DNA of 64,000 bases from Myxococcales bacterium (GTDB taxonomy: Bacteria; Myxococcota_A; Polyangia; Polyangiales; Houyiibacteriaceae). A program made the translations under genes and the position numbers. This document shows positions 5,945-61,643 of this stretch, piece after piece. The DNA lies in the NCBI GenBank assembly GCA_029863605.1, contig JAOTVB010000002.1, positions 186,001 through 250,000 of the forward strand, in the 5' to 3' direction. A model generated the notes under the pieces. The model saw only the letters and a program-made list of their open reading frames with translations, was not told where the DNA came from and made no database searches. Every line of letters starts with the position of its first letter. The stretch's first letter is position 1.

Positions 5945-6262
5945 ATGGCGAAGAGAAAGAACGAGCGGCGAGACGCTCGCAAAGAGCGCGCAAAAGCCGC
6001 AAAAGAAGCCAGGCGCGAGGCCGAAGCAGAAGCGTCGAGGACGAGACAGCGCTGGCGTCTCGCGTCGATCGCGGTCGCGGCGTTGAGCATTGCTCTCGCC
6101 GCGCTGTCGTACTGGGTCTTGGACGACCGAAGACTGGTGGGTGTGTCCCTATTAGTCGGCGGCGTTCTGTTCCTTCTGCTCGCGCTCGGGTCACTCGGTG
6201 CTGGGGTCAAGCCACGCGACAGACGCACTGCAGGCTCAATCGATTTCGGCAAGCGGGATTGA
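5945..6262 (+). CDS. Small membrane protein with basic N-terminus
   Basis: 105 aa. The first 35 residues are extremely Lys/Arg/Glu/Ala-rich and probably form a charged cytoplasmic helix. Two hydrophobic segments follow (LASIAVAALSIALAALSYWVL and LVGVSLLVGGVLFLLLALGSL), giving a predicted hairpin in the inner membrane. It sits 12 bp after the TPR protein and 10 bp before the next TPR gene, so the three are likely one operon. No family recognised. Confidence 0.6.
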   Translation: MAKRKNERRDARKERAKAAKEARREAEAEASRTRQRWRLASIAVAALSIALAALSYWVLDDRRLVGVSLLVGGVLFLLLALGSLGAGVKPRDRRTAGSIDFGKRD

Positions 6263-6272
6263 GGCGAGCCGG

Positions 6273-6791
6273 GTGGACGACTCGCAATCGAAGCGCTGGG
6301 AAGCCGCGGAAGAGGGGATGGAGCTTCTTCACGCGGGCGAAATCGACCAGGCTGTCGCCGAGCTGTTGCGCGTAGCGCGCGAGGACTCCCACAACGAATA
6401 TGCGTTTCACTTCCTCGGCCACGCCTATTTCCAAAAGGAAGCCTATCCTGAGGCGCTCAAAAGCTACATCGAGGCTCTCCGGCTCGCTCCGGAATACGTG
6501 GGCGCGATGATCGGCGCAGGTCAGGCGCTTCGCATGATGGGCGAGTACGACCGCGCCATTCGCATGGGGCAACGTGTGCTCCAAAAAGACCAAGACGATT
6601 CAGACGCACTCTTCCTGGTCGGGGCGGCCCATTTTCAAAAAGGCGAAAATCAGGCGGCGAAACGTTATCTCGAGCGCTATCTCGAGACCGGGCCGGAGCT
6701 CGAAGTCGCGCTCGAAGTCGAGGGAATGCTGCAGGTCGTGCGTGGCGAAACGTTGCCTTTCCCAACGGCCGAAGACACGGTAGACAACTAG
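6273..6791 (+). CDS. TPR protein
   Basis: 172 aa if the GTG at 6273 is used, which has an AGGCGA ribosome-binding site nine bases upstream; the frame is open further upstream inside the preceding gene. At least four TPR units are visible (EEGMELLHAGEIDQAVAEL, HFLGHAYFQKEAYPEALKSY, GAGQALRMMGEYDRAI, LVGAAHFQKGENQAAKRYL). No signal peptide or membrane segment, so cytoplasmic. Third gene of a probable TPR/membrane operon that ends just before the mutase gene. Confidence 0.72.
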   Translation: MDDSQSKRWEAAEEGMELLHAGEIDQAVAELLRVAREDSHNEYAFHFLGHAYFQKEAYPEALKSYIEALRLAPEYVGAMIGAGQALRMMGEYDRAIRMGQRVLQKDQDDSDALFLVGAAHFQKGENQAAKRYLERYLETGPELEVALEVEGMLQVVRGETLPFPTAEDTVDN

Positions 6792-6800
6792 GAGGAGGCA

Positions 6801-8519
6801 GTGGTGACTGCAGACCCGGCCAAGACCCTCGGATCTCGAGGCGAGTCAGAAAGCGACGACAAGACGCGTCTGCAGGACGACGCAAAACGGTGGCGCGAAC
6901 AAGACGTTCAACGTGCCGTTCACCAGCACCCCCTTCGAAAAGAAAGGTTTGCAACGCACAGCGACCAAGTGGTGCCGGACCTTCTCACCCCGGCCGACCT
7001 CGACGACAGCTATCTGCGCGACCTCGGATTTCCTGGTCAGTTTCCGTACACGCGCGGGGTGCAGCCGACGATGTACCGAGGTCGGCTTTGGACGATGCGC
7101 ATGTTCGCCGGGTTCGGCACGCCTCGACAGACGAACGAGCGGTTTCGATATCTGCTCAGTCAGGGCCAAACCGGGCTATCGACGGCCTTCGATTTTCCGA
7201 CGCTCATGGGCTACGACAGCGATTCACCTCGGTCGCTCGGGGAGGTCGGGATGGTCGGGGTGGCCGTCGACACGCTGCGCGACATGGAGATCCTGTTCGA
7301 CCAAATCCCGCTCGATCGCGTGACGACGTCGATGACGATCAACGGCCCTGCCGCGGTCTTGTTGGGCTTCTACGTGGCGTTGGCCGACAAGCGCGGGATC
7401 CCGCGTGACAAGATCGGCGGCACTGTCCAAAACGACTGCCTCAAGGAGTTCATCGCGCAGCATGCCTGGGTGGTCCCGCCACGCCCCGCGATGCGCATCG
7501 TCACCGACAGCATCGAGTTCTGCGCGGCCGAGGTCCCTCGATGGAACAGTGTCAGCATCAGCGGCTATCACATCCGCGAAGCGGGTTCGACCGCGGCGCA
7601 AGAGCTTGCGTTCACGATCGCAGACGGTCTCGAGTACGTGAAGTGGGCGGTAGCGCGCGGTTTGGACGTCGACGATTTCGCTCCGCGGCTCTCGTTCTTC
7701 TTCGATGTCCACAACGATTTCTTCGAAGAGGTGGCGAAGTTCCGAGCGGCGCGCCGGATGTGGGCTCAGTTGATGAGAGATCGCTTCGACCCGAAGAACC
7801 CAAAGTCGCTCATGCTTCGGACCCATGCCCAGACCGCGGGAGTCTCTCTCACCGCGCAACAGCCCTACAACAACGTCGCACGCGTTGCGCTTCAAGCTTT
7901 GGCCGCTGTCCTCGGCGGTACGCAGTCGCTGCATACCAACAGCCTCGACGAGACGTTTGCCCTCCCAACCGAGGAGGCCGTGACGGTAGCGCTGCGCACC
8001 CAGCAGATCATCGCTGAAGAGTCGGGCGTGACCAACACCATCGATCCCCTTGCTGGCAGCTACTTCGTCGAGTGGATGACCAACAAGCTCGAAGAGGACG
8101 CGATGGGCTACATTCGCAAGATCGACGATTTTGGGGGAATGGTCGAAGCGGTAGAGCGCGGGTACCCCCAGCGCGAGATCGCGGCCTCTGCCTACCGACT
8201 TCAGCGTCAGATCGAAAGCGGCGAGAAGACGGTCGTCGGCCTGAACAAGTACGAGCAAGAAGAAGAGGCGCAGATCCCTACCCTGCGGATCGACGAATCG
8301 ATCCAGCGGGAGCAGATCGAGGGGTTGTTAAAAGTCAAAGCCGAGCGAGACGACAAAGAAGTCACGCGGACGCTTGGATTGATTCGCGAAGCCTGCAAGA
8401 GTGACCACAACGTCATGCCTGCCATCGTCGAGGCGGCCAAGGCGTATTGCAGCGAGCAAGAGATCTGCGACGTGTTCCGAGAGGTCTTCGGCCAGCACCA
8501 AGACCGACCGGAGTTTTAG
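6801..8519 (+). CDS. icmA: Acyl-CoA mutase large subunit, isobutyryl-CoA-mutase-like
   Basis: 572-aa B12-dependent acyl-CoA mutase catalytic (TIM-barrel) subunit lacking the C-terminal cobalamin-binding domain; no DxHxxG motif is present, so a small B12-binding partner is needed and is not in this window. Conserved segments include [39 protein letters not shown] and LHTNSLDE. Two positions separate methylmalonyl- from isobutyryl-CoA mutases: Tyr89 and Arg207 of the P. shermanii enzyme correspond here to Phe102 and Gln220, the isobutyryl-CoA mutase pair. Isobutyryl-/n-butyryl-CoA interconversion is therefore more likely than methylmalonyl-CoA. Start: GTG with GGAGG six bases upstream. Confidence 0.85.
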
Positions 8520-8570
8520 GACCCGGCCCTTGGTCGGACGTCGAGGCCGACCATTCACGAGAGGAATATA

Positions 8571-9044
8571 ATGAGAATCGTTTCATCGTTACTGATCGCT
8601 TTGTCACTGGTCATTGGCAGCTCAGCCGTGACCACAGGGACGGCAAGCGCCGACCGCCACGAAGCGGTAAAGCGCGAAGCCAATGAGAAGGGCGAGGAGG
8701 GTAAGGAAAAGTCCGAAGACGCAAAGGAAGAAGTCGACAAAGACGGCAACCAGGCCAGAGACGACGCCAAGGCCAAAGCCGAAGCTCGCAAGGAAGCTCA
8801 GAAAGCCAAAGCCGAAGCTCGCAAGGAAGCTCAGAAAGCCAGGGTCGAGGCCCTCAAGGCGGCGCGAAAGGAGCGCTTGCTCAAACAAGAAGAGAAGCGC
8901 CATGCCGGCCAGATGAAGGAGATAGAAGGGAGACGCGCCCGGGTGATCGAGCTACGCGAAAAGCAGCTCAAGAACGTTGATACGGCGGAGGCCAGGGAAA
9001 AGGCACGGCATGAGAAGCGTGTTGAGCAGATCAACGCGCAGTAG
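8571..9044 (+). CDS. Secreted Lys/Glu/Ala-rich helical protein
   Basis: 157 aa. An N-terminal signal peptide (about residues 1-27, ending near TASA) precedes a highly charged, almost entirely helical mature part. Residues about 65-95 hold an 11-residue tandem repeat (KAKAEARKEAQ twice, then a diverged third unit), mirrored at DNA level by a direct repeat around 8770-8840. The charge pattern predicts a single alpha helix or coiled coil, presumably periplasmic. A good ribosome-binding site (AGAGGA) supports the start. Function unknown. Confidence 0.65.
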   Translation: MRIVSSLLIALSLVIGSSAVTTGTASADRHEAVKREANEKGEEGKEKSEDAKEEVDKDGNQARDDAKAKAEARKEAQKAKAEARKEAQKARVEALKAARKERLLKQEEKRHAGQMKEIEGRRARVIELREKQLKNVDTAEAREKARHEKRVEQINAQ

Positions 9045-9071
9045 CGGAGCTTCAGTGCTTCGTCCCTGAGA

Positions 9072-9497
9072 CTACTGGCCGGTCATCCGCAGCCACATGG
9101 CTACCAGCATCGCAGTCACCAACACCGCCAGCCCGACGATACCGACCGCTTCTTCGATGCGTCGAAGTCGTGGTTGGTCTTCGTTCCACTCATGCGGAAG
9201 GGAGTCGTCGGGCAGTGGCTCAGAAGGGAGTGGGGCCGGAGGGGGAATTCTGCGGTGTAGCGGCGGGTCGGGAAGTGGGGGTGCGTCGTTCGCAACCCGC
9301 GCCCAAAGCTCCTCTTGCATGGTCTCATCCCCGCTACCGTCGGAGGCGTCGTCCGTGGATCGCCGGACGCGCAGGACCTTCGTCGTGCTGTCCTTACGGC
9401 TTTTCCGAATGTGACTCCAACGTCGCCTCTTGTTTTTGGGAGCGTCCGAGTCGTTTTCGGGGTGCGGCACCGGGTTCATTCCTTTCACCGCCCCCAT
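9072..9497 (-). CDS. Proline-rich protein with C-terminal membrane anchor
   Basis: 141 aa (an internal ATG at codon 7 is an alternative start). A basic N-terminal third, a proline-rich middle (PPLPDPPLHRRIPPPAPL) and a single C-terminal hydrophobic helix (VGIVGLAVLVTAMLVAMWL) followed by only a few residues. This is tail-anchor topology with the bulk in the cytoplasm. No family recognised. It is convergent with the preceding secreted helical protein and divergent from the genes that follow. Confidence 0.5.
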   Translation of the reverse strand: MGAVKGMNPVPHPENDSDAPKNKRRRWSHIRKSRKDSTTKVLRVRRSTDDASDGSGDETMQEELWARVANDAPPLPDPPLHRRIPPPAPLPSEPLPDDSLPHEWNEDQPRLRRIEEAVGIVGLAVLVTAMLVAMWLRMTGQ

Positions 9498-51849: not shown

Positions 51850-51932
51850 GCAGATAGTAACTACAAACGCTCTCTCTTAGGCTCAAAGAGTGAACTTATA
51901 AGAGGTTCTGCGCAATTCAGTAGCTGAGTGAG
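51850..51932 (-). repeat. Dispersed repeat, type 2, copy 2
   Basis: Reverse-oriented. The outer 40 bp (CTCACTCAGCTACTGAATTG...) match the type-1 repeats almost perfectly; the tail (…GCGTTTGTAGTTACTATCTGC) matches copy 1 of type 2. Its partner end was not found. Confidence 0.7.
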
Positions 51933-51960
51933 CTAAGATTGTTGGGAGAGGATGTAATGA

Positions 51961-52364: not shown

Positions 52365-53780
52365 ATGGACAACAACTACGATCTCATACTCGTTGGTTCG
52401 AGCTTCGCGTCGTCGTTCTTCTTGTTGGAGTACCTTAGGCGATTTGGCCCCGACAGGCGTGTGCTGGTCCTGGAGTGGGGGCGTCGACGTTCCCACCAGG
52501 AGAACATCGAATCGCGGCGCCACAGCGACTTCGACTTCGAGGATATTGCGCACAATCCGCATCCGACGAAACAGTGGGTGTCAAACATCGTATTCGGCGG
52601 CAACTCGAACTGCTGGTGGGCGTGCACTCCTCGGATGCTTCCGTCGGATTTCGAATTGAATTCGAAATATGGCGTGGGTGTCGATTGGCCGATCGGCTAC
52701 GACGACCTCGAGCCCTTCTACGCGAAGGCGGAGCAGATCATGTCGGTATCGGGCCCCGACGATGGCTCGCCTTTCCCGCGGAGCACGCCGTATCCCCAAC
52801 CCCCCCACCGCTTTTCGGAGCCGGATCGCGTTCTCAAACAGGCAAATCCCGACACGTTCTTCGTGATGCCAACAGCGAGAGCACGGGTAGCCACGAAAAA
52901 CCGTCCGGCCTGCTGCGCAACGTCGACATGCCACCTCTGTCCAATCGACGCCAAGTTCACGGTTCAGAACGAGCTTGCCTGGCTGTACGAGGATCCCCGC
53001 GTCGAGTTGCGTCTGAACGCAAAAGTGACGCATCTCGAGTTGGCCGCCGGTGTCGCCAAAGGGGTGCACTACGAGAAGGATGGGAGGACGCACCGAGTGG
53101 CCGGCGACTTGATCGGGCTCTGCGCCAACGCACTCATGAATCCATCCATCTTGCTTCGGTCAGGCGTCTCTCACCCGTGGGTAGGCGGAGGTCTCAGCGA
53201 ACAGGTGAGCAACTCGGCGAAAATCTACCTCGACAATCTGGACGCCTTCCAGGGGAGCACGAGTCTCACCGGGCACGGGTACATGCTCTACGACGGAATG
53301 CATCGACGCGAAAGGGCTGCGTGCCTGATCGAATTCTCGAACAAGCCCGTGCTTCGCCCCGAGTTCGGTCGCTGGCGTCAGATCTTGCCTGTGAAGCTCA
53401 TCTACGAGGACCTGCCCAAGCTCGAGCATAAGATCGATATCGACTCGGGAGATGGCAAACCAAGGACGATCTTCGGTCGCCACAGCGACTATACGCAGCG
53501 CGCCATCGACGAGAATCGCCAGCTTCTTGCACGAGCGGTATCGGCCCTGCCGGTGGAGAGCATCGAGTACGAAGGACAGGTATCACGCACGGAGGCTCAT
53601 ATACTCGGAACCGCACGCATGGGGACTGATCCGAGCACCAGCGTCGTCGACCCGGGACTGACCATGCATTCCCATCGTAATGTCCTGGTCCTGGGTGGCA
53701 GCGCATTCCCGACTTGCGCGCCGGCGAATCCAACGTTGACCATCTGCGCGCTGTCTCTACGCGCCGCGAGCATGCTGTGA
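52365..53780 (+). CDS. GMC-family FAD oxidoreductase
   Basis: 471 aa. N-terminal FAD-binding segment DLILVGSSFASS (a variant of GxGxxG), FGGNSNCWWACTPRM near the substrate side, a cysteine-rich patch (CCATSTCHLCPID) seen in membrane-dehydrogenase relatives. The GMC C-terminal motif HILGTARMGTDP and GGSAFPTCAPANPTLT are present. Catalytic His lies in the SRTEAH region. Likely oxidises an alcohol or sugar, passing electrons to a carrier. Coupled by a 4-nt GTGA overlap to a twin-arginine protein, as in gluconate/sorbitol dehydrogenase-type complexes. Confidence 0.82.
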   Translation: MDNNYDLILVGSSFASSFFLLEYLRRFGPDRRVLVLEWGRRRSHQENIESRRHSDFDFEDIAHNPHPTKQWVSNIVFGGNSNCWWACTPRMLPSDFELNSKYGVGVDWPIGYDDLEPFYAKAEQIMSVSGPDDGSPFPRSTPYPQPPHRFSEPDRVLKQANPDTFFVMPTARARVATKNRPACCATSTCHLCPIDAKFTVQNELAWLYEDPRVELRLNAKVTHLELAAGVAKGVHYEKDGRTHRVAGDLIGLCANALMNPSILLRSGVSHPWVGGGLSEQVSNSAKIYLDNLDAFQGSTSLTGHGYMLYDGMHRRERAACLIEFSNKPVLRPEFGRWRQILPVKLIYEDLPKLEHKIDIDSGDGKPRTIFGRHSDYTQRAIDENRQLLARAVSALPVESIEYEGQVSRTEAHILGTARMGTDPSTSVVDPGLTMHSHRNVLVLGGSAFPTCAPANPTLTICALSLRAASML

Positions 53781-54283
53781 CGGGGGCTCTTCTCGGTCGG
53801 CGTGCGTTCCTTGTCGGTATCACGGCGGCTGGCGGTGCGGTACTCGCGACCGGCGCCTCATTAGTGCTGAGTGATCCGGCCGCCTCCATCCATGCGATCA
53901 TTGCCAAGCGGCTGGGTGTGCTCACATTTGAACCGGAGGGTCTCGGAAAATTCGTGGGCGACTACGTGGAACAGAATGAAGCACGGATCTCGGATCGCCG
54001 ATGGCAGTTCTTTCGGGCAGTCCTGCCACTGTACCGGCACACTGGCTTGCTCAAAGCCACACCGATGGCCAGGTATCTCTACAGACGTGAATCCGAAGTA
54101 GTCTCGGCTCTGCTGCTTTCGTCGGATTTCTTCATGCGAGCCGACCAGTCGCCGGAATCCACGAAAATCACACCGATTCGTTACCTTGGCTGGTATGAAG
54201 ACAATCTCTGTACGTCGAGGAATCCGTTCGCGCGCTTCGATTTTCCGTCCGATCGAAGTCGAGATGGCGCCCGAGGGCACTGA
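53777..54283 (+). CDS. Twin-arginine small subunit of GMC dehydrogenase
   Basis: 168 aa from GTG 53777, fixed by overlap with the GMC stop. N-terminal Tat signal GRRAFLVGITAAGGAVL. The mature part (HAIIAKRLGVLTFEPEGLGKFVGDYVEQNE, ...YLGWYEDNLC) resembles the gluconate-2-dehydrogenase subunit-3 type of helper protein by size and context. It probably carries the GMC subunit across the inner membrane as a hitchhiker and anchors it in the periplasm; the family call is moderate. Confidence 0.62.
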   Translation: MTGALLGRRAFLVGITAAGGAVLATGASLVLSDPAASIHAIIAKRLGVLTFEPEGLGKFVGDYVEQNEARISDRRWQFFRAVLPLYRHTGLLKATPMARYLYRRESEVVSALLLSSDFFMRADQSPESTKITPIRYLGWYEDNLCTSRNPFARFDFPSDRSRDGARGH

Positions 54284-54373
54284 AGAATCCCGCCTGCTTC
54301 TCGTTGTCTGCTAACTTCATCCTCGCCGACCGAGCTGGGCACTTGGCCGCACAGCGCGCGTTCGACCCGCCCG

Positions 54374-55312
54374 TTGTCGAGCGCCATGACGGATCACCAC
54401 CCTCGCTATTGCAGTCGGACGCTCGTTCGTGGATCTACATCCGCTTCCGCCGATGAAACGACCGAGACCCTTGCCGACCCGGTCGCCGACCCAATGGCAC
54501 TCGACAACAGCAGGCCGCCTCCAAAAACCAAGGCCACCCTGGCCCAACCGCCCAACATCGAGTGGTCGCTCTGGGCCGAGCTCGGCTTTCTCGTCGTCGC
54601 CAGCCACATCGTTCAGCTCGGCGACGACGGCACACGCTTCGATTATCGAAAAGAGGGCGGTCAAGACATCCTCTTTCCGTTCTTCCGGTTGAGCACTGAC
54701 CTCAAGTTCAAAGGCCGGCACACCGTCGTCTTTCTCTACCAGCCGCTGAAGCTCAGCGGTGAGACCGTGCTGACTGAGGACACCGTGTTTGACGGCATCG
54801 TCTTTCCTGCGGACACGGCTGTCAACAGCACGTATGGTTTTCCGTTTTGGCGGATCAGCTATCTCTATGATTTCCTCCGCCGTGCGGGCGACGAGGCCTC
54901 GGTCGGGTTTTCACTGCAGATTCGAAACGCGACGATCACGTTTACGTCGGCGGACGGCATGCTGCGTGCCGATCGTCGTGACGTCGGCCCCGTGCCAGCG
55001 CTCAAATTCCGGGGTCGATGGGGATTCGAAAGCGGTGTCTGGTGGGGTGCGGAGGTCGACGGGATCTACGCGCCGATCAGCGTGATCAACGGCAGCAGCA
55101 GCGAGGTCACGGGCGCCCTGCTCGATGCGAGCCTACGCGTCGGCTACGATTTCACGAACCGGATCTCTGGCTTTTTCAACGTGCGGTACCTCGGTGGCGG
55201 CGCCGTTGGCGACGAAAACAATCCTGACCCACAAAGCGACGGCTTCACCAAGAACTGGCTACACTTCGTTACGGTGAGCCTCGGTGTCGAGTTCCGCGCG
55301 GTCTCGCGTTAG
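54374..55312 (+). CDS. Outer-membrane beta-barrel-like protein
   Basis: 312 aa as annotated; the N-terminus lacks a signal peptide and an ATG at 54494 is an alternative, so the 5' end may be damaged. From residue 60 on, alternating beta strands with aromatic girdles (WSLWAELGFLVVASHI, HTVVFLYQPLKL, FPFWRISYLYDFL, VGFSLQIRNATITF, LRVGYDFTNRISGFFNVRYLG) indicate an outer-membrane barrel. Follows the GMC pair by 90 bp on the same strand. Confidence 0.58.
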   Translation: MSSAMTDHHPRYCSRTLVRGSTSASADETTETLADPVADPMALDNSRPPPKTKATLAQPPNIEWSLWAELGFLVVASHIVQLGDDGTRFDYRKEGGQDILFPFFRLSTDLKFKGRHTVVFLYQPLKLSGETVLTEDTVFDGIVFPADTAVNSTYGFPFWRISYLYDFLRRAGDEASVGFSLQIRNATITFTSADGMLRADRRDVGPVPALKFRGRWGFESGVWWGAEVDGIYAPISVINGSSSEVTGALLDASLRVGYDFTNRISGFFNVRYLGGGAVGDENNPDPQSDGFTKNWLHFVTVSLGVEFRAVSR

Positions 55313-55371
55313 ACGCCAAGCCGCTCACTGTCCTGCCGTCACGGTCACGCGCAGCGAACGCGTCAAAGAAG

Positions 55372-55400
55372 AAAGCCGGTTCTCTTTCGAGACGGGCTTT
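55372..55400 (-). terminator. Hairpin terminator downstream of 5S rRNA fragment
   Basis: Imperfect inverted repeat AAAGCC...CTC / GAG...GGCTTT with a short loop, followed on the minus strand by a T-rich run (TTCTTT). It lies immediately downstream of the 5S 3' end, as rRNA operon terminators do. Confidence 0.65.
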
Positions 55401-55407
55401 CATAGTT

Positions 55408-55457
55408 CCGGCAGCGTCCTACTCTCCCACAGGGCTGCCCCTGCAGTACCATCGGCT
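55408..55457 (-). pseudogene. 5S rRNA gene fragment (3' ~50 nt)
   Basis: The minus strand reads GCCGATGGTACTGCAGGGGC and GTGGGAGAGTAGGACGCTGCC, the conserved 3' third of bacterial 5S rRNA (loops D/E and helix I 3' strand). Similarity stops abruptly at about 55457; no 23S or 16S sequence is nearby. With the adjacent terminator it is the end of an rRNA operon left by a rearrangement or insertion. No function is expected. Confidence 0.85.
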
Positions 55458-55593
55458 CTGATGGTTGAGACTCTTAGCGTTCGTTGAGGTTTCGAAAACG
55501 GGCCTCTGCAGGGCGCAGTCCCTGCTACTCGAGATCCGCGTCGAGCTCGTGGATGGCGGCTTTTTCCTTGACGAGCTCGATGAAGCGCGCGAG

Positions 55594-55676
55594 CTCACTC
55601 AGCTACTGAATTGCGCAGAACCTCTCATAAGTTAACTTTGCGAGACTGAAAAAGGGCCTTTGTTTCGCCTATGCTC
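55594..55676 (+). repeat. Dispersed 83-bp repeat, type 1, copy 2
   Basis: Full copy; differs from the copy at 58.5 kb at only two of 83 positions. With the 5S fragment and terminator it occupies most of the 504-bp gap 55313-55816; I see no gene in the remainder of that gap. Confidence 0.88.
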
Positions 55677-55816
55677 GAAGAGACTATAGGACGTCGACCA
55701 CGAAGCGAGACCAACGCCTCCAAGAACACGCCCTGCTGACGGCGACACGCTCGATGTCGGCGCGTTTCGACAGACACGCCCCGCGGCTAGCTCTTCGGAT
55801 AGACAACGCAAAGGAC

Positions 55817-56527
55817 CTATTCTGGCTTGCGAGCGGTGACGATCTCCGATGGGAAAAGACACTGTTGATGGTACTCGGTCTCGTCCACGGCAAACCCATG
55901 GTGCGGCAGTTTACGTGCAACTTCGACGCCACGACAACCTCCAAGAGTGCGTGGTGACCATCGGGAGATGTGCTCGTAGAGGCGACTCATCGGGGTCCGA
56001 CCGCGAGCCATGTTCACGAGCACGATTCTGCCTCCGGGCCTGAGAACCCGCGCGAACTCGCCGAGCGCCTCCGCCGTGTCTTCCGCGGAGAGCAGATCGA
56101 ACATGTAGGTGTTGATCAACAGATCGATACTTTCGCTTTGGAAGGGGAGATCGAGCGCGCTGCCGAGACTCAGCTCGTAGTCGACCTTTGCATGTTTGCT
56201 GGCGCGCTCTTTCGCCTTCGCCAGCATACCCTCGGAGAGGTCGATCCCCATGTTCTTTCCGTGCGGATTTCGTCGAAGGACTTGCTCGAACATCAGGCCC
56301 GTCCCAACGGCGACTTCGAGGATCGCTTCACCGTCCTGAATCCGCGCGAGCTCCAGGGCCCGCTTTCTCGCCTTCGATTCCGTGGCAAATGCCCAGACGT
56401 CGTAGGCGGGAGCGAGAGAATCATAGAGTGCCCCGATCTGCTCCTGAGGCACAGGGGCTGCCTCCGCCTGCCCCTGCGAGCGGTCCGAAGTTGGTGAGCC
56501 GGGGGTGCAGCACGATCGAATTTCCAT
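55817..56527 (-). CDS. SAM-dependent methyltransferase (UbiE-like class I)
   Basis: 236 aa. SAM motif I ILEVAVGTGLMFEQV, motif post-I MGIDLSEGML, motif II/III (DLPFQSESIDLLINTYMFDLL, ARVLRPGGRIVLVNM). N-terminal tail of about 30 residues with CC near residue 6, then the helix LYDSLAPAYDVWA typical of UbiE/ArsM-type enzymes. Acceptor unknown; a quinone or thiol/metalloid substrate would fit the operon. Last gene of the AhpD-like/ECF/quinone-reductase operon (31 bp after the reductase). Confidence 0.82.
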   Translation of the reverse strand: MEIRSCCTPGSPTSDRSQGQAEAAPVPQEQIGALYDSLAPAYDVWAFATESKARKRALELARIQDGEAILEVAVGTGLMFEQVLRRNPHGKNMGIDLSEGMLAKAKERASKHAKVDYELSLGSALDLPFQSESIDLLINTYMFDLLSAEDTAEALGEFARVLRPGGRIVLVNMARGRTPMSRLYEHISRWSPRTLGGCRGVEVARKLPHHGFAVDETEYHQQCLFPSEIVTARKPE

Positions 56528-56558
56528 ATCTCTGTCTCCTTTTTAGACCCACTTGTTT

Positions 56559-57296
56559 CTAGAATTCTTTCCCTAGGACGTACGCCCGGCTCAAATACTC
56601 CTGCCGCGTCGCGGCACTGACGGCGTTGACGGCATGGAAGTAGACGTGCTCCACGTCGTTGATTCCCGGGTATCGAAATCCCCAGCTGTCTATCACCTGC
56701 GCCATCGCCTCCCCCAACGCGGCCTTGTAGGCATCTTCGCTGAAGAATGTCGTGTTGATGATCAACGCTTTGTCGTGCTTCAACAGCGGGACTCGTCCGT
56801 CCACGTCGCCTTGCCACCCCTCGGGCGTCAACGAATAGGCGAAACCGTAGGTGAAAACCCGGTCGATCCAGCCTTTCAGGATGGCAGGAAAATGCATCCA
56901 AAAGACGGGGGCGATGAAAGCCAGCCCTTGCGCGCCGGAGACTTGTTCTTGTTGCTCCCGCACGTCTTTGGGCTTGTTTCTCTTGATCAATCTCACGACG
57001 TCGGAAAGCGTCTTGTCTTGCATCCATCGCTTCGCGAGCAATCTTTTCAGAGGCCCACCACTGAGTTGCAGCACTTGCTGTTTGAGGTTCATGCCTTCCA
57101 GCACATGATCGGGGACAGTCTCGTCGGCAAAGAAGGCATAGTCATTCATGTTGAAGACCGGATCAAATCCGATCTCGTACAGATCGATGACTCGTGACGT
57201 GTGCCCGCCATCTTTGAGTCCTTTGGTGAACTGCTCAAGGATGGCGTGACAAAAGGACTTAGGGTTTGGGTGCGCGTACACTGTCAAAACTCTCAT
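56559..57296 (-). CDS. Flavodoxin-fold NAD(P)H:quinone oxidoreductase
   Basis: 245 aa from ATG 57296 (upstream frame overlaps the sigma-factor gene). N-terminal RVLTVYAHPNPKSFCHAIL is the FMN/FAD phosphate loop of the NQO1/KefF/MdaB family; FIAPVFWMHFPAILKGWIDRVFTYGFAY is the family's central signature. Two-electron reduction of quinones or related electrophiles in the cytoplasm is the usual role. The start overlaps the sigma-factor 3' end by 38 bp. Confidence 0.87.
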   Translation of the reverse strand: MRVLTVYAHPNPKSFCHAILEQFTKGLKDGGHTSRVIDLYEIGFDPVFNMNDYAFFADETVPDHVLEGMNLKQQVLQLSGGPLKRLLAKRWMQDKTLSDVVRLIKRNKPKDVREQQEQVSGAQGLAFIAPVFWMHFPAILKGWIDRVFTYGFAYSLTPEGWQGDVDGRVPLLKHDKALIINTTFFSEDAYKAALGEAMAQVIDSWGFRYPGINDVEHVYFHAVNAVSAATRQEYLSRAYVLGKEF

Positions 57297-57909
57297 CGTC
57301 TCGTCCCTCCGGTTTGCAGGAGTCACCCTGTTGCTTCCTATCACAAGGCACGGTGTCCTCTTCGAGAGAGAGCACACAGCCTTCTCGGAGACTCGCTTTG
57401 AGCGCGGCGCGGCCACGATGTAGTAAGACTCGGGAATTGGACTCCGAAATATCTAGTTGGGCCGCGATCTCCTTGTGTTTCAGGCCAGCCATGTCGTGAA
57501 GCGCGATGACGTTACGTTGGGGCGGGGGCAGGCGAAAAACGAACTCGGCGACACACGCCGACATTTCGTCACGCAACAGCTCGTCCTCTGTGTCCACCGC
57601 AGAAGCGAAACGCTCGACCTCGCCGCCGGTCTCGTCCGGTGCACGGGTGCCTTTTCGCAAGTGGTCTTTCGCGACATTCATCGCGATCGAGATCAACCAG
57701 GTTTTCTCGGAGGCGTCGCCGCGAAAAGACGCCCGCCCTGTGTGCGCCTTCAGGAAGGTCACCTGCGTCAGGTCCTCTGCCAACGTCGCGTCACCCAACA
57801 TCCGCGTCAGGAAGGCGCGCACAGCCGACCGATGCTCGCTCCACAGGTCAGGGCGCACAGCCGCAACCGCTGTCTCTCTTCTGGTTCTTGCTCGCCGCTT
57901 GGTTCCCAT
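57259..57909 (-). CDS. ECF-type RNA polymerase sigma factor
   Basis: 216 aa from ATG 57909 (GTG 57858 would shorten the overlap with the upstream gene to 11 bp). Sigma-2 region LTRMLGDATLAEDLTQVTFLKAH and TWLISIAMNVAKDHLRK; sigma-4 region FRLPPPQRNVIALHDMAGLKHKEIAAQLDISESNSRVLLHRGRAAL. A C-terminal extension of about 40 residues contains three cysteines (GCVLS, PCDRK, SCKPE) that might sense redox or metal. No anti-sigma gene is adjacent. Probably drives its own operon. Confidence 0.85.
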   Translation of the reverse strand: MGTKRRARTRRETAVAAVRPDLWSEHRSAVRAFLTRMLGDATLAEDLTQVTFLKAHTGRASFRGDASEKTWLISIAMNVAKDHLRKGTRAPDETGGEVERFASAVDTEDELLRDEMSACVAEFVFRLPPPQRNVIALHDMAGLKHKEIAAQLDISESNSRVLLHRGRAALKASLREGCVLSLEEDTVPCDRKQQGDSCKPEGRDDESFDSVRAPKP

Positions 57910-58111
57910 TGCCAATGATCTCTTCGACGTAGCCGCTGGTCTTGGATGCGGCCCCGCGGGCCACCATAAGGCCGACTTCGACCGCTGTCTGCACGTCCGC
58001 GCGATCGATGCCAAGGCGATCGCAGGTCTCCAGATGATGCTGCAGGCATGGCCTGCAATTCACCGCAGCAGAAGCTCCAATTGCAACTAGCGCTTTGATT
58101 TGCTCATCCAT
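57848..58111 (-). CDS. AhpD-like carboxymuconolactone decarboxylase family protein
   Basis: 87 aa from ATG 58111, preceded by an excellent ribosome-binding site (GGAGGAG). AhpD/CMD fold with the redox motif CRPCLQHH (CxxC..H) in an all-helical protein, followed by a Cys-rich tail DSGCGCAP. By family it acts as a thiol peroxidase or disulfide reductase. The C-terminal CGC tail is unusual and could bind metal. First gene of the operon; overlaps the sigma-factor start. Confidence 0.82.
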   Translation of the reverse strand: MDEQIKALVAIGASAAVNCRPCLQHHLETCDRLGIDRADVQTAVEVGLMVARGAASKTSGYVEEIIGNGNQAASKNQKRDSGCGCAP

Positions 58112-58143
58112 GTTCTCCTCCAAAGTGGCCCTAACCACCTTGA

Positions 58144-58170
58144 GACGATCCCGCGGATCAGAACGTTACA
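58144..58170 (-). promoter_or_regulatory. ECF-type promoter of the AhpD-sigma operon
   Basis: Minus strand: TGTAAC (58165-58170), 17-bp spacer, CGTC (58144-58147), about 33 bp upstream of the first start codon. This is the textbook ECF pattern (-35 with AAC, -10 CGTC) and suggests autoregulation by the operon's own sigma factor. Confidence 0.6.
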
Positions 58171-58531
58171 CCATGGCTCTACCGAGCTCAGGTGCCCGGG
58201 CGTCGGATCGAGACAACGACGGTCCTCATACGGGCCGCAACTATCAACTCGCGGCAGGGCTTTTCGTATTCGAGAGCCACGCAGCTAGCCGCACCCACCG
58301 ATCACGATCCGGAGCGACGGCGAAGAGAAGCTACGCAAGCTGGCGCTCGCTACGCCGACGCGTCCGACCTGATCGCAACCGACCACTGGTAAGTCGCATC
58401 CAAGCTCGATGCTATGCGTCGCCGCTGCGACGAGGTTGGATTCAATGCTGATGGCATTGTCATAAGAATGCCCGGTAACGCGTTTTCCTCGTGTTCTTTG
58501 GACGTGTTCTTATCGCTACCTGTCCGCGAAA
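58171..58531. other. Gene-free stretch
   Basis: About 360 bp between the ECF promoter and the next repeat. Short open frames exist on the plus strand but show no coding character, start signal or recognisable similarity. Confidence 0.5.
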
Positions 58532-58614
58532 CTCACTCAGCTACTGAGTTGCGCAGAACCTCTCATAAGTTAACTTTGCGAGACTGAAAAAGGGCCCTTG
58601 TTTCGCCTATGCTC
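58532..58614 (+). repeat. Dispersed 83-bp repeat, type 1, copy 3
   Basis: Full copy, 81/83 identical to the copy at 55.6 kb; here the inner palindrome is AAGGGCCCTT. Lies 133 bp upstream of the barrel gene at 58748. Confidence 0.88.
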
Positions 58615-58747
58615 CCGGTTGCCGCGCTCCACGCCTTCGGCTTATTCGCGATGGGGAGCGAGTCGAACGAAGCAGCGTAATTTTGCGCACGCAACCGAAG
58701 TTCTATACCGTGGCTTCGGGGGATGACGCGTCCAGGGGGAGGTTGAG

Positions 58748-59692
58748 ATGAGAAGGTGGATCACTCCGGTGTGCGCCGCCACGATCGCGGGCGGGTGTGT
58801 GATTCCAAGCCTGGTGTTCGCCGAGGAAGAGGCTGGCGAAACGCCGCCTTCCTTGGTGGCCGATGAGGCGCCGCCTCCCGCAGTAGAAGCGGCAAGCGTG
58901 GAAGCCACGAGCAAGGACGCTGCCGACAACTACGGGCTCGCCTATGCCGGGCGAGAGCTGACGATGCCGCGAGGTATGGTCCGAGGCACGTTTGACGTGA
59001 GTACTTTGCACCTTGGCCTGGGTCTCTTCAGTCAAAACTTCGTTTCGCTCAACTTCGGGGCAGCGATCTCGCCGGTCGACGATCTCGAGCTCGGTTTCTC
59101 ACGCTACCGGATGGGCTCGTATCCAGGCATTAACTTTATCGACCTAGTGAACTTGGGAGGGTCAGGGCTCATCTCTGCCTTTGTCTCGCCTGAAGGCGAT
59201 TTCGGCGACATTCCATTCTACGTACGATACCAGCCCATGAGTGGAACTGCGGACGTAGCGCTCGAGTTCCGTCTTAGGATCCCAACCCTATCCGAGTTCG
59301 GCCTTGCGTTCGGCGTCCCGGTGAGAATCCATGCGGGCGACTCCGTCGCGATCGACACCGGTTTCGATCTCACGCTTGACGATCCGGGTGGCGTTAACAT
59401 TCTCAGCGTGGGTGTGCCATTTCAGATCGTTGGCAATGTTTCGGACAACTTCTTCTTGGAGCTACAGACAGGCGTCAGCCTTCCAGACATCACGACAGAT
59501 CCGGTCGTCACCGTGCTACCCCTCGGTTTTACATTGGGCGGCTCGGTCGATGCTGGTCCGGTAATGCTCGACGCCTTCTTCAATTTCCGGTTTCCAACGT
59601 TTGCGGCGTTTGCTAGCGGAAACTCTGAAATCACCACCGAAATTTGGACGATCACCATCGGCATCAACGTCTACTCGCCTGTGCTTTTTTGA
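58748..59692 (+). CDS. Outer-membrane beta-barrel protein
   Basis: 314 aa. Signal peptide (about 1-25, ending VFAEE), an acidic, Pro/Ala-rich linker, then regular beta strands (STLHLGLGLFSQNFVSLNFG, DIPFYVRYQP, VALEFRLRIP, FGVPVRIHAG, FFLELQTGVSLP, VMLDAFFNFRFP). It ends on phenylalanine (YSPVLF), the usual outer-membrane assembly signal. GGGGGAGGTTGAG precedes the ATG. It is flanked by type-1 repeats in the same orientation, as if on a 1.2-kb module. Confidence 0.75.
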   Translation: MRRWITPVCAATIAGGCVIPSLVFAEEEAGETPPSLVADEAPPPAVEAASVEATSKDAADNYGLAYAGRELTMPRGMVRGTFDVSTLHLGLGLFSQNFVSLNFGAAISPVDDLELGFSRYRMGSYPGINFIDLVNLGGSGLISAFVSPEGDFGDIPFYVRYQPMSGTADVALEFRLRIPTLSEFGLAFGVPVRIHAGDSVAIDTGFDLTLDDPGGVNILSVGVPFQIVGNVSDNFFLELQTGVSLPDITTDPVVTVLPLGFTLGGSVDAGPVMLDAFFNFRFPTFAAFASGNSEITTEIWTITIGINVYSPVLF

Positions 59693-59767
59693 CATGCATC
59701 ACCTGAGCTCCCCGGATGTCGCCGACGAGCAGGTTCATGCCGCGCACACCGCTCCTACCGCTCCGGG

Positions 59768-59835
59768 ATTGCGCAGAACGTCTTATAAGTTAACTTTGCA
59801 AGACTGAAAAAAGGGCCTTTGTTTCGCCCATGCTC
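59768..59835 (+). repeat. Dispersed repeat, type 1, copy 4 (left end diverged)
   Basis: Matches the other copies from ATTGCGCAG onward with one extra A in the A-run; the first ~15 bp are replaced. The ATGCTC at its end opens the RHS-like fragment. Confidence 0.8.
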
Positions 59836-59985
59836 TTCGGATGGCAACATGATGAGCTTCGACGACGGCAATCCACGCGCAGCTACAGTTTCGGTCTTTA
59901 CAGCTACGTCTATTCGGACCCGAGCGGCCAGCAGTTCGAGGTGCTGGACTACTGGGTCAACCAGGTTGCCAACAACGCGCCTTGA
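59830..59985 (+). pseudogene. RHS/YD-repeat-like C-terminal fragment
   Basis: 51 codons starting at the ATG in the repeat end. The segment SYSFGLYSYVYSDPSGQ resembles the end of an RHS core (xYxYVxxDPxG), followed by a short unrelated tail and stop. Too short to be a functional toxin; a remnant or a chance match. Confidence 0.35.
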
Positions 59986-60071
59986 GTCTGCACAGCCGAT
60001 AGAAGTCGTGGCATGGGTTGCGAACACTCGTCAGGCGGCGCGGGGCGCCTCAGAAGAAGCCGCATCAGTCG

Positions 60072-60226
60072 TTAGGGAGTGATGACGACTCTCCCCTGGG
60101 GCTCACCCTCCATGAGATAACGGATGGCCTCGGACGCCTCGCTGAGGGGATACGCTCTATCGATGACCGGCGTGATTTTGCCCGCTGCGAGAAACTCCTG
60201 GAAGACCGCCATCGTGTCCTTGAAGG
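60072..60226 (-). pseudogene. Zinc-type (MDR) dehydrogenase C-terminal fragment
   Basis: Minus-strand frame encodes TMAVFQEFLAAGKITPVIDR and LSEASEAIRYLMEGEPQGR then VVITP-stop, the standard C-terminus of MDR alcohol dehydrogenases/quinone reductases. Everything upstream is missing; similarity begins within a few bases of the TolC gene stop. Not functional. Confidence 0.75.
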
Positions 60227-60227
60227 G

Positions 60228-61643
60228 TTAGCGGCAACGCGCTCCCGTCGTCGTGGTCCAGCGCACCTGCTCGATCTCGGCAACCGCGAGTGCCTCGATG
60301 AGGCGAACACGAGCCAGCGCCGCCTGCTGCTCCCGAAGGTTGACGAAGATCAGGTTGCTCGAGCCAACGTCGAATCGGCGCCGTTCCCCTTCGGAAAGGG
60401 TCGCGGCGGTCTCGACGAGCTCGGCATTGAGGCGCACTCGTTCTCGCGCCGCACGAACCGCGGATGCCGCATCGCGGACCCGAGCGCGTAGCTGATCCTC
60501 GATGAAGCGAACCTCGGCCCGCTGTGCCGCAGCCTTTGCTCGAGCAGCGCTTGCGCGACCTCGCTCGTCTCGAAAGAGAAGCGGCATCGAGAGCTGAATT
60601 CCCGCCTCGAAGACGTTACCTGGAAGCGTGAAATCGAGATCCGTGCCGGTGAGCTGGCCGAGGTCTCTCGAGTACTCGAACGCGGCCTCGAGCTCGGGGG
60701 CGAGCTGATTCTTCGTGAGCCGCACGTCTACATCGAAAGCGCGGAGCTCCGCGCGCACGCGCTCGACCTCTGGATGACAAGCGAGGACTTGGTCGATCAC
60801 CGCGTCTTCGGACAAATCGGGATCGTCCCCGAGGCTGACGGCGGCGGGAAGCCGTTCGGGTGCCGGAACGATCGACCGGCCCTGCTCGTCCCTCAGGAAA
60901 AGCGACAGCTCGAAGGCCGCCTGCTCGAAGCCTCGCTGCGCAGTGACCAGCAACGCCCGGCGTTCGAGCAGAATGCGCTCGTTGTCCGTTATGTCGAACT
61001 CCGCAATCGAGCCGGCCGCGAGGCGACGACGAAGCTGAGAATCTCGCTGCTCGGCCAAATCGAGCAGCGCCTTGGTGACCTCCGACGTCTGCCCCGCGCT
61101 CACCCACTTCCAGTAGGCGCTTGCGGCGGCGACCTCGAGGTCGAGTGCGGTGCTGTCGAGGACGCTTCGCGCAGCGTCTTCAAGCTCGAGCGCGCGGGCC
61201 CGTCTCGCCCGCGCCTCGTCGATGAGCCCGTTTCGCCAGATCGGAATCTCGATGCCTGCACGGACCTCGCCGCCCGAGAGAGTCTGGTTGTCGAAGTACG
61301 TGGGCCAGCGTTGATTGACTCCGCGCCCGACCCGGTAACCTGCATAGATCTCGGAGCCCCAAAGCGTGGTCGCCTGCCGCAGCTCGGCGTCCGCCTCTCG
61401 AAGGTCGTAGTACGCACCGGTGGTGAGAGCGGCGTCGCCTTTCAGCCGTGGGTCGAACGCGCCTCGAGCCTCCATCGTGTTGCCCTCTGCGCGGCGGAGA
61501 TCCTCGACCGCCTTCCGGATGCGGGGGTCGTGCACCGTGACTGATTCCATGACCTCGTCGAGGCGAAGCGGCGATGGATCGGCCTGGGCGACGTGCGGCG
61601 CAACCAACCCGATGAGAAAGGCCCAACGGGCTAGCCGAGTCAC
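60228..61643 (-). CDS. TolC-family outer-membrane efflux protein
   Basis: 471 aa. Signal peptide (to about residue 21), then two homologous OEP halves made of long coiled-coil helices (RAEGNTMEARGAFDP, ARRARALELEDAARSVLDSTALDLEVAAASAYW; second half VRLTKNQLAPELEAAFEYS...). Outer-membrane channel of a tripartite export system. It overlaps the HlyD gene by 4 nt and is last in an ABC-HlyD-TolC operon. Stop codon lies against the dehydrogenase fragment. Confidence 0.9.
   Translation of the reverse strand: MTRLARWAFLIGLVAPHVAQADPSPLRLDEVMESVTVHDPRIRKAVEDLRRAEGNTMEARGAFDPRLKGDAALTTGAYYDLREADAELRQATTLWGSEIYAGYRVGRGVNQRWPTYFDNQTLSGGEVRAGIEIPIWRNGLIDEARARRARALELEDAARSVLDSTALDLEVAAASAYWKWVSAGQTSEVTKALLDLAEQRDSQLRRRLAAGSIAEFDITDNERILLERRALLVTAQRGFEQAAFELSLFLRDEQGRSIVPAPERLPAAVSLGDDPDLSEDAVIDQVLACHPEVERVRAELRAFDVDVRLTKNQLAPELEAAFEYSRDLGQLTGTDLDFTLPGNVFEAGIQLSMPLLFRDERGRASAARAKAAAQRAEVRFIEDQLRARVRDAASAVRAARERVRLNAELVETAATLSEGERRRFDVGSSNLIFVNLREQQAALARVRLIEALAVAEIEQVRWTTTTGARCR

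Follow-up and report, generated by a model that had tools for sequence, protein, structure and literature searches.

For SigZ of B. subtilis we know of no assigned signal or regulon. A precedent for direct sensing by an ECF sigma factor through a cysteine tail is CorE, which carries CRD cysteines at positions 181, 184, 192 and 194 and a CXC in its linker (PMC3107203, PMC8999054). ECF41 sigma factors recognize a −35 element TGTCACA, commonly stand in a COE-ECF gene order, and have neighbouring COE proteins that showed no role in signalling (PMC3426412). Here we compare these systems with a four-gene unit on the minus strand (58170–55817) of a 64,000-nucleotide stretch of DNA, referred to as the window, in which a promoter is followed by genes for an AhpD-like protein (CMD), an ECF sigma factor, a quinone reductase and a methyltransferase (Table 1). 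The comparisons are drawn from samples of one phylum, and the neighbouring genes are open reading frames (ORFs) throughout, without curated annotation.

A four-gene unit behind an ECF promoter

The first-pass annotation of this DNA had placed the operon genes and their promoter correctly, and all four reading frames are intact. It had described the four genes as overlapping, which holds for CMD and sigma and for sigma and reductase, whereas a gap of 31 nt separates the reductase from the methyltransferase. The sigma frame begins at ATG 57909, with an alternative GTG at 57858, and ends with a stop at 57259.

The promoter that had been assigned to the operon itself is confirmed as the single exact match in the window, where dinucleotide shuffles lead one to expect 0.17 matches to TGTAAC-N16/17-CGTC. 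The suggested scan for further promoters of this type returns no other in the 64 kb, but related motifs do appear at other loci of the sigma subclade. A second exact match to the extended motif in the window's genome sits within a coding frame, and therefore no further target is identified there. The proposed lack of an adjacent anti-sigma factor also stands: no anti-sigma domain is present in the five larger flanking ORFs (52365–61643), the small ORFs being covered in part. On the level of sequence comparison, the architecture and the autoregulation of the operon are well supported.

Table 1 Features of the operon and its flanks
Feature	Position	Strand	Evidence
ECF-type promoter TGTAAC-N17-CGTC	58144..58170	−	upstream of CMD; exact match unique in window
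CMD: AhpD-like, CxxC..H, tail CGCAP	57848..58111	−	Pfam CMD 28.2 bits vs cut-off 23
ECF sigma, SigZ sister lineage; linker C119, tail C178, C189, C199	57259..57909	−	Sigma70_r2 + r4_2
Flavodoxin-fold NAD(P)H quinone reductase	56559..57296	−	Flavodoxin_2 128.6 bits; PDB matches are quinone reductases
UbiE-like SAM methyltransferase, N-terminal CC, not ArsM	55817..56527	−	Methyltransf_25 72.3 bits
83-nt repeat, upstream of operon	58532..58614	.	sequence comparison
83-nt repeat, downstream of operon	55594..55676	.	direct copy, 98% identical to upstream repeat

The repeats on either side of the operon belong to an intergenic family with 12 matches in the genome. A search of 18 same-genus genomes did not turn up the operon itself; in G001 similarity resumes at 58665, just beyond the repeat, and G013 has the left flanking gene followed by a different segment. 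Presumably the operon was gained or lost by recombination at the repeats. Within the window, copies at 51863–51934, 55594–55676, 58532–58614 and 59752–59834 occur in both orientations, close to or at points where synteny with same-genus genomes breaks off. As candidates for structured RNA the flanking repeats do no better than shuffles, and this idea was discarded.

A cysteine-tailed sister lineage of SigZ

The best named match of the sigma factor is SigZ (TIGR02959), the score of 92.4 bits lying below the family cut-off of 168.65. Relatives at 47–50% come from G333, G141 and G383; G343, G367, G514 and G415 supply more distant ones. In a tree calculated with the tail left out, comprising 8 subclade sigmas, 30 SigZ sigmas and 25 other ECFs, the subclade and SigZ group together (97.9 SH-aLRT) apart from the other ECFs, and the window sigma is sister to SigZ rather than nested inside it. 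Its grouping with the three closest relatives receives 100 SH-aLRT; support for the eight subclade members as a single group is only 69. Plasmid searches returned distant sigmas only and no match to a relative's CMD.

The cysteine-bearing tail noticed at first pass is real: it spans about 40 aa and includes C178, C189 and C199. A cysteine at column 178 is found in all eight subclade sigmas, in 30/30 SigZ sigmas and in 1/25 other ECFs. A cysteine tail also marks the SigZ sigmas of the same phylum. The linker residue C119 is likewise present in all eight subclade sigmas. C189 is invariant in a first alignment (n=6); in a larger one its column is shifted in four members, each of which has a second tail cysteine nearby. 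In a low-confidence predicted structure, C178 and C189 lie on two short strands of the tail. The earlier interpretation is upheld in part, and neither the kinship to SigZ nor the phylum-wide family with cysteine tail and self-promoter had been part of it.

Promoter words follow the region 4.2 helix

All eight subclade loci show an ECF promoter ahead of CMD or its operon. TGTAAC-N16/17-CGTC occurs in 3/5 subclade loci (0.07 expected), the remaining loci having TGTATC..CGTC ahead of CMD or its operon. Among the SigZ loci (L028–L057), 21 of 30 carry a self-promoter TGCGTCCTT-N12-14-CGTC that is seen 0 times in shuffles, and neither this motif nor TGTAAC-N16/17-CGTC is found at the 25 other ECF loci. 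The class of −35 word tracks the region 4.2 helix of the respective sigma: TGTAAC goes with an SRVLLHRGR-type helix, TGTATC with a VKVRLHRAR-type helix and TGCGTCC with a GMKSRVQRGR-type helix. A finding in its own right is that the strong SigZ promoter of this phylum mostly lies ahead of arsM.

A conserved CMD-sigma core

The complete four-gene order, whose conservation had been proposed as a check, was found in the window's genome alone; what is kept among relatives is the CMD-sigma core, without the reductase and the methyltransferase. A CMD gene lies nearby in 8/8 known subclade members. It precedes the sigma gene on the same strand in the window, L088, L117 and L118, follows it in L089 and L087, and is divergent in L085 and also in L086, there at a distance of 2.7 kb. 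In L088 the ECF promoter stands ahead of a longer run of genes that ends in CMD-sigma.

Window CMD has the motif C19-R-P-C22-L-Q-H-H and a C-terminal tail CGCAP. C19, C22 and the terminal C83 are invariant in eight relatives, while the histidine is missing in some of them and the protein varies between one and two domains. With 17.1 vs 27.8 on TIGR00778, CMD falls outside the AhpD peroxidases, and at the position which we take to be the proton-relay glutamate of AhpD it has a different residue.

A search of 376 other genomes gave no reductase match at E<=1e-22, and the top methyltransferase matches (50%, G355 and G327) are not adjacent to the sigma gene; both genes look like local additions.

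Some relatives show further features. In L088, an open frame (7267–6710, minus strand) upstream of CMD-sigma has an in-frame TAG (VISC*GGCFRGEIARVAAHM), which may encode pyrrolysine or else stem from a sequencing error or mark a disrupted gene. L087 encodes a short cysteine-rich protein (6141–6327, plus strand) behind a TGTAAC-N17-AGTC promoter and divergent from CMD. In L086 a gene for an MMPL-type exporter (7076–9478, minus strand) separates a TGTAAC-N17-CGTC promoter from the sigma gene and is likely a further target.

Arsenic genes next to the sister sigmas

A link to metalloids had been suggested for the operon, and it gains substance from the relatives: arsenic genes adjoin the sister SigZ sigmas and one subclade member. 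An ArsM-like methyltransferase is a neighbour at 20/30 SigZ loci of the phylum, among which fall 17 of the 21 loci with the SigZ self-promoter. Two of these methyltransferases were scored and are true ArsM, that is, arsenite methyltransferase (336 and 351 bits vs a cut-off of 263), and the others aligned have the same cysteines. In the subclade member L117 a set of ArsR, ArsM, ACR3 and ArsC-like (LMWPc) genes is found directly upstream of CMD-sigma; an MddA-like methyltransferase follows the sigma gene in L117, with its own promoter, and in L118. These neighbours hint at the trigger for the SigZ-like group. In the literature searched, which did not include the main ECF classification paper, we found no paper linking SigZ to arsenic methylation.

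The window methyltransferase, evaluated as ArsM (NF008823), was rejected with 62.1 bits vs a cut-off of 263 and two cysteine positions missing. The window's genome does have arsM and acr3, at separate sites outside the operon, and no promoter of the kinds described above was found near its arsM. Since these genes lie elsewhere and the operon's methyltransferase is not ArsM, arsenic need not be the trigger, which may be another thiol-reactive compound.

On a Vibrio plasmid (L120, 3194–4046, plus strand) a gene read by eye as ArsR-like is followed by a SigZ-like sigma with a cysteine tail. The arsenic link may therefore reach Pseudomonadota.

A putative one-component switch and its alternatives

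How could such an operon be controlled? The reading towards which we lean, with some reserve, is a one-component ECF switch free of an anti-sigma factor: its cysteines would detect a metalloid or electrophile that reacts with thiols, and the sigma would induce a local cassette for thiol-redox chemistry, reduction and methylation. We infer its trigger and sensing step from the conservation of the cysteines and from analogy to CorE and ECF41 (PMC8999054, PMC3107203, PMC3426412). A soft metalloid (As/Se/Te) or a thiol-reactive electrophile would bind to, or react with, C119 in the linker and C178, C189 and C199 in the tail, upon which the sigma, now active, would transcribe its own operon from TGTAAC-N17-CGTC. 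To remove the stress, CMD would contribute a dithiol for redox chemistry or binding, the flavoprotein would reduce quinone-like compounds by two electrons, and the methyltransferase would methylate the product; the switch would reset once the trigger is gone.

CMD is the sole constant partner of the sigma (8/8) and has a conserved terminal cysteine of its own, so it might instead be the sensor or co-regulator, using its dithiol to hold the sigma as an anti-sigma factor would, while the sigma tail only docks to it. We regard this as unlikely: CMD may have one or two domains and may sit 2.7 kb away or on the opposite strand, the COE neighbours of ECF41 showed no part in signalling (PMC3426412), and SigZ sigmas retain the tail though a motif search found no CMD in their 1.5-kb flanks. 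A similarly low probability goes to a generic operon against oxidative or quinone stress in which transcription, or an anti-sigma factor encoded elsewhere, controls the sigma, and the cysteines hold a structural zinc without sensing anything. Zinc sites of this structural kind are common, both the reductase and CMD would suit general redox stress, and the operon has no metalloid gene; yet the larger flanking ORFs are devoid of anti-sigma domains, and cysteine tails and neighbouring arsenic genes are recurrent in the SigZ lineage. That the locus is a decayed or passenger cassette without a working switch, moved by recombination at its repeats, would fit the direct repeats and the 18 same-genus genomes in which the operon was not found. 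With four intact frames, and a promoter and cysteines that match those of distant relatives, we consider it very improbable.

Extending the one-component switch to the whole lineage is tentative, though possible: SigZ-lineage sigmas might be widespread one-component thiol or metalloid sensors, each with the −35 word of its 4.2 helix, that control cassettes for arsenic, selenium or electrophile methylation. If true, this would assign a function to the SigZ group. The sigmas, with their matched promoter words and neighbour genes, lend themselves to direct tests (arsenite, selenite, tellurite, quinones, diamide), and direct sensing as in CorE could prove to be shared by a larger group.

Comparison with known systems

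The operon shares features with several described systems. With the ArsM-AhpD fused selenoproteins (NF041537) it has in common a methyltransferase and an AhpD-like domain that work together; in contrast, these are separate genes in the window, no selenocysteine is seen, and both proteins score below the cut-off. CorE/CorE2 of Myxococcus xanthus (ECF44, now ECF238) are similar in their short cysteine-bearing C-terminal extension, linker cysteine and lack of a linked anti-sigma factor. The window's C-x10-C-x9-C with a single C119 differs from the CorE cysteine pattern with its linker CXC, and membership is rejected.

The layout had also been likened to ECF41 clusters without the SnoaL extension, and this description was accurate. 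The COE neighbour gene is there in the form of CMD, and the absence of an anti-sigma factor, the CGTC −10 element and the promoter ahead of the COE gene agree as well; however, Pfam finds only sigma domains and no SnoaL, and the −35 element is TGTAAC vs TGTCACA, by which ECF41 membership is rejected. The SigZ family (TIGR02959, B. subtilis SigZ type) differs in its −35 word (TGCGTCC vs TGTAAC), in its 4.2 helix and in having ArsM rather than CMD as a neighbour. It nevertheless lies on the same side of the tree against the 25 other ECFs, and shares with the window sigma the cysteine tail, the CGTC −10 element and a self-promoter ahead of the operon.
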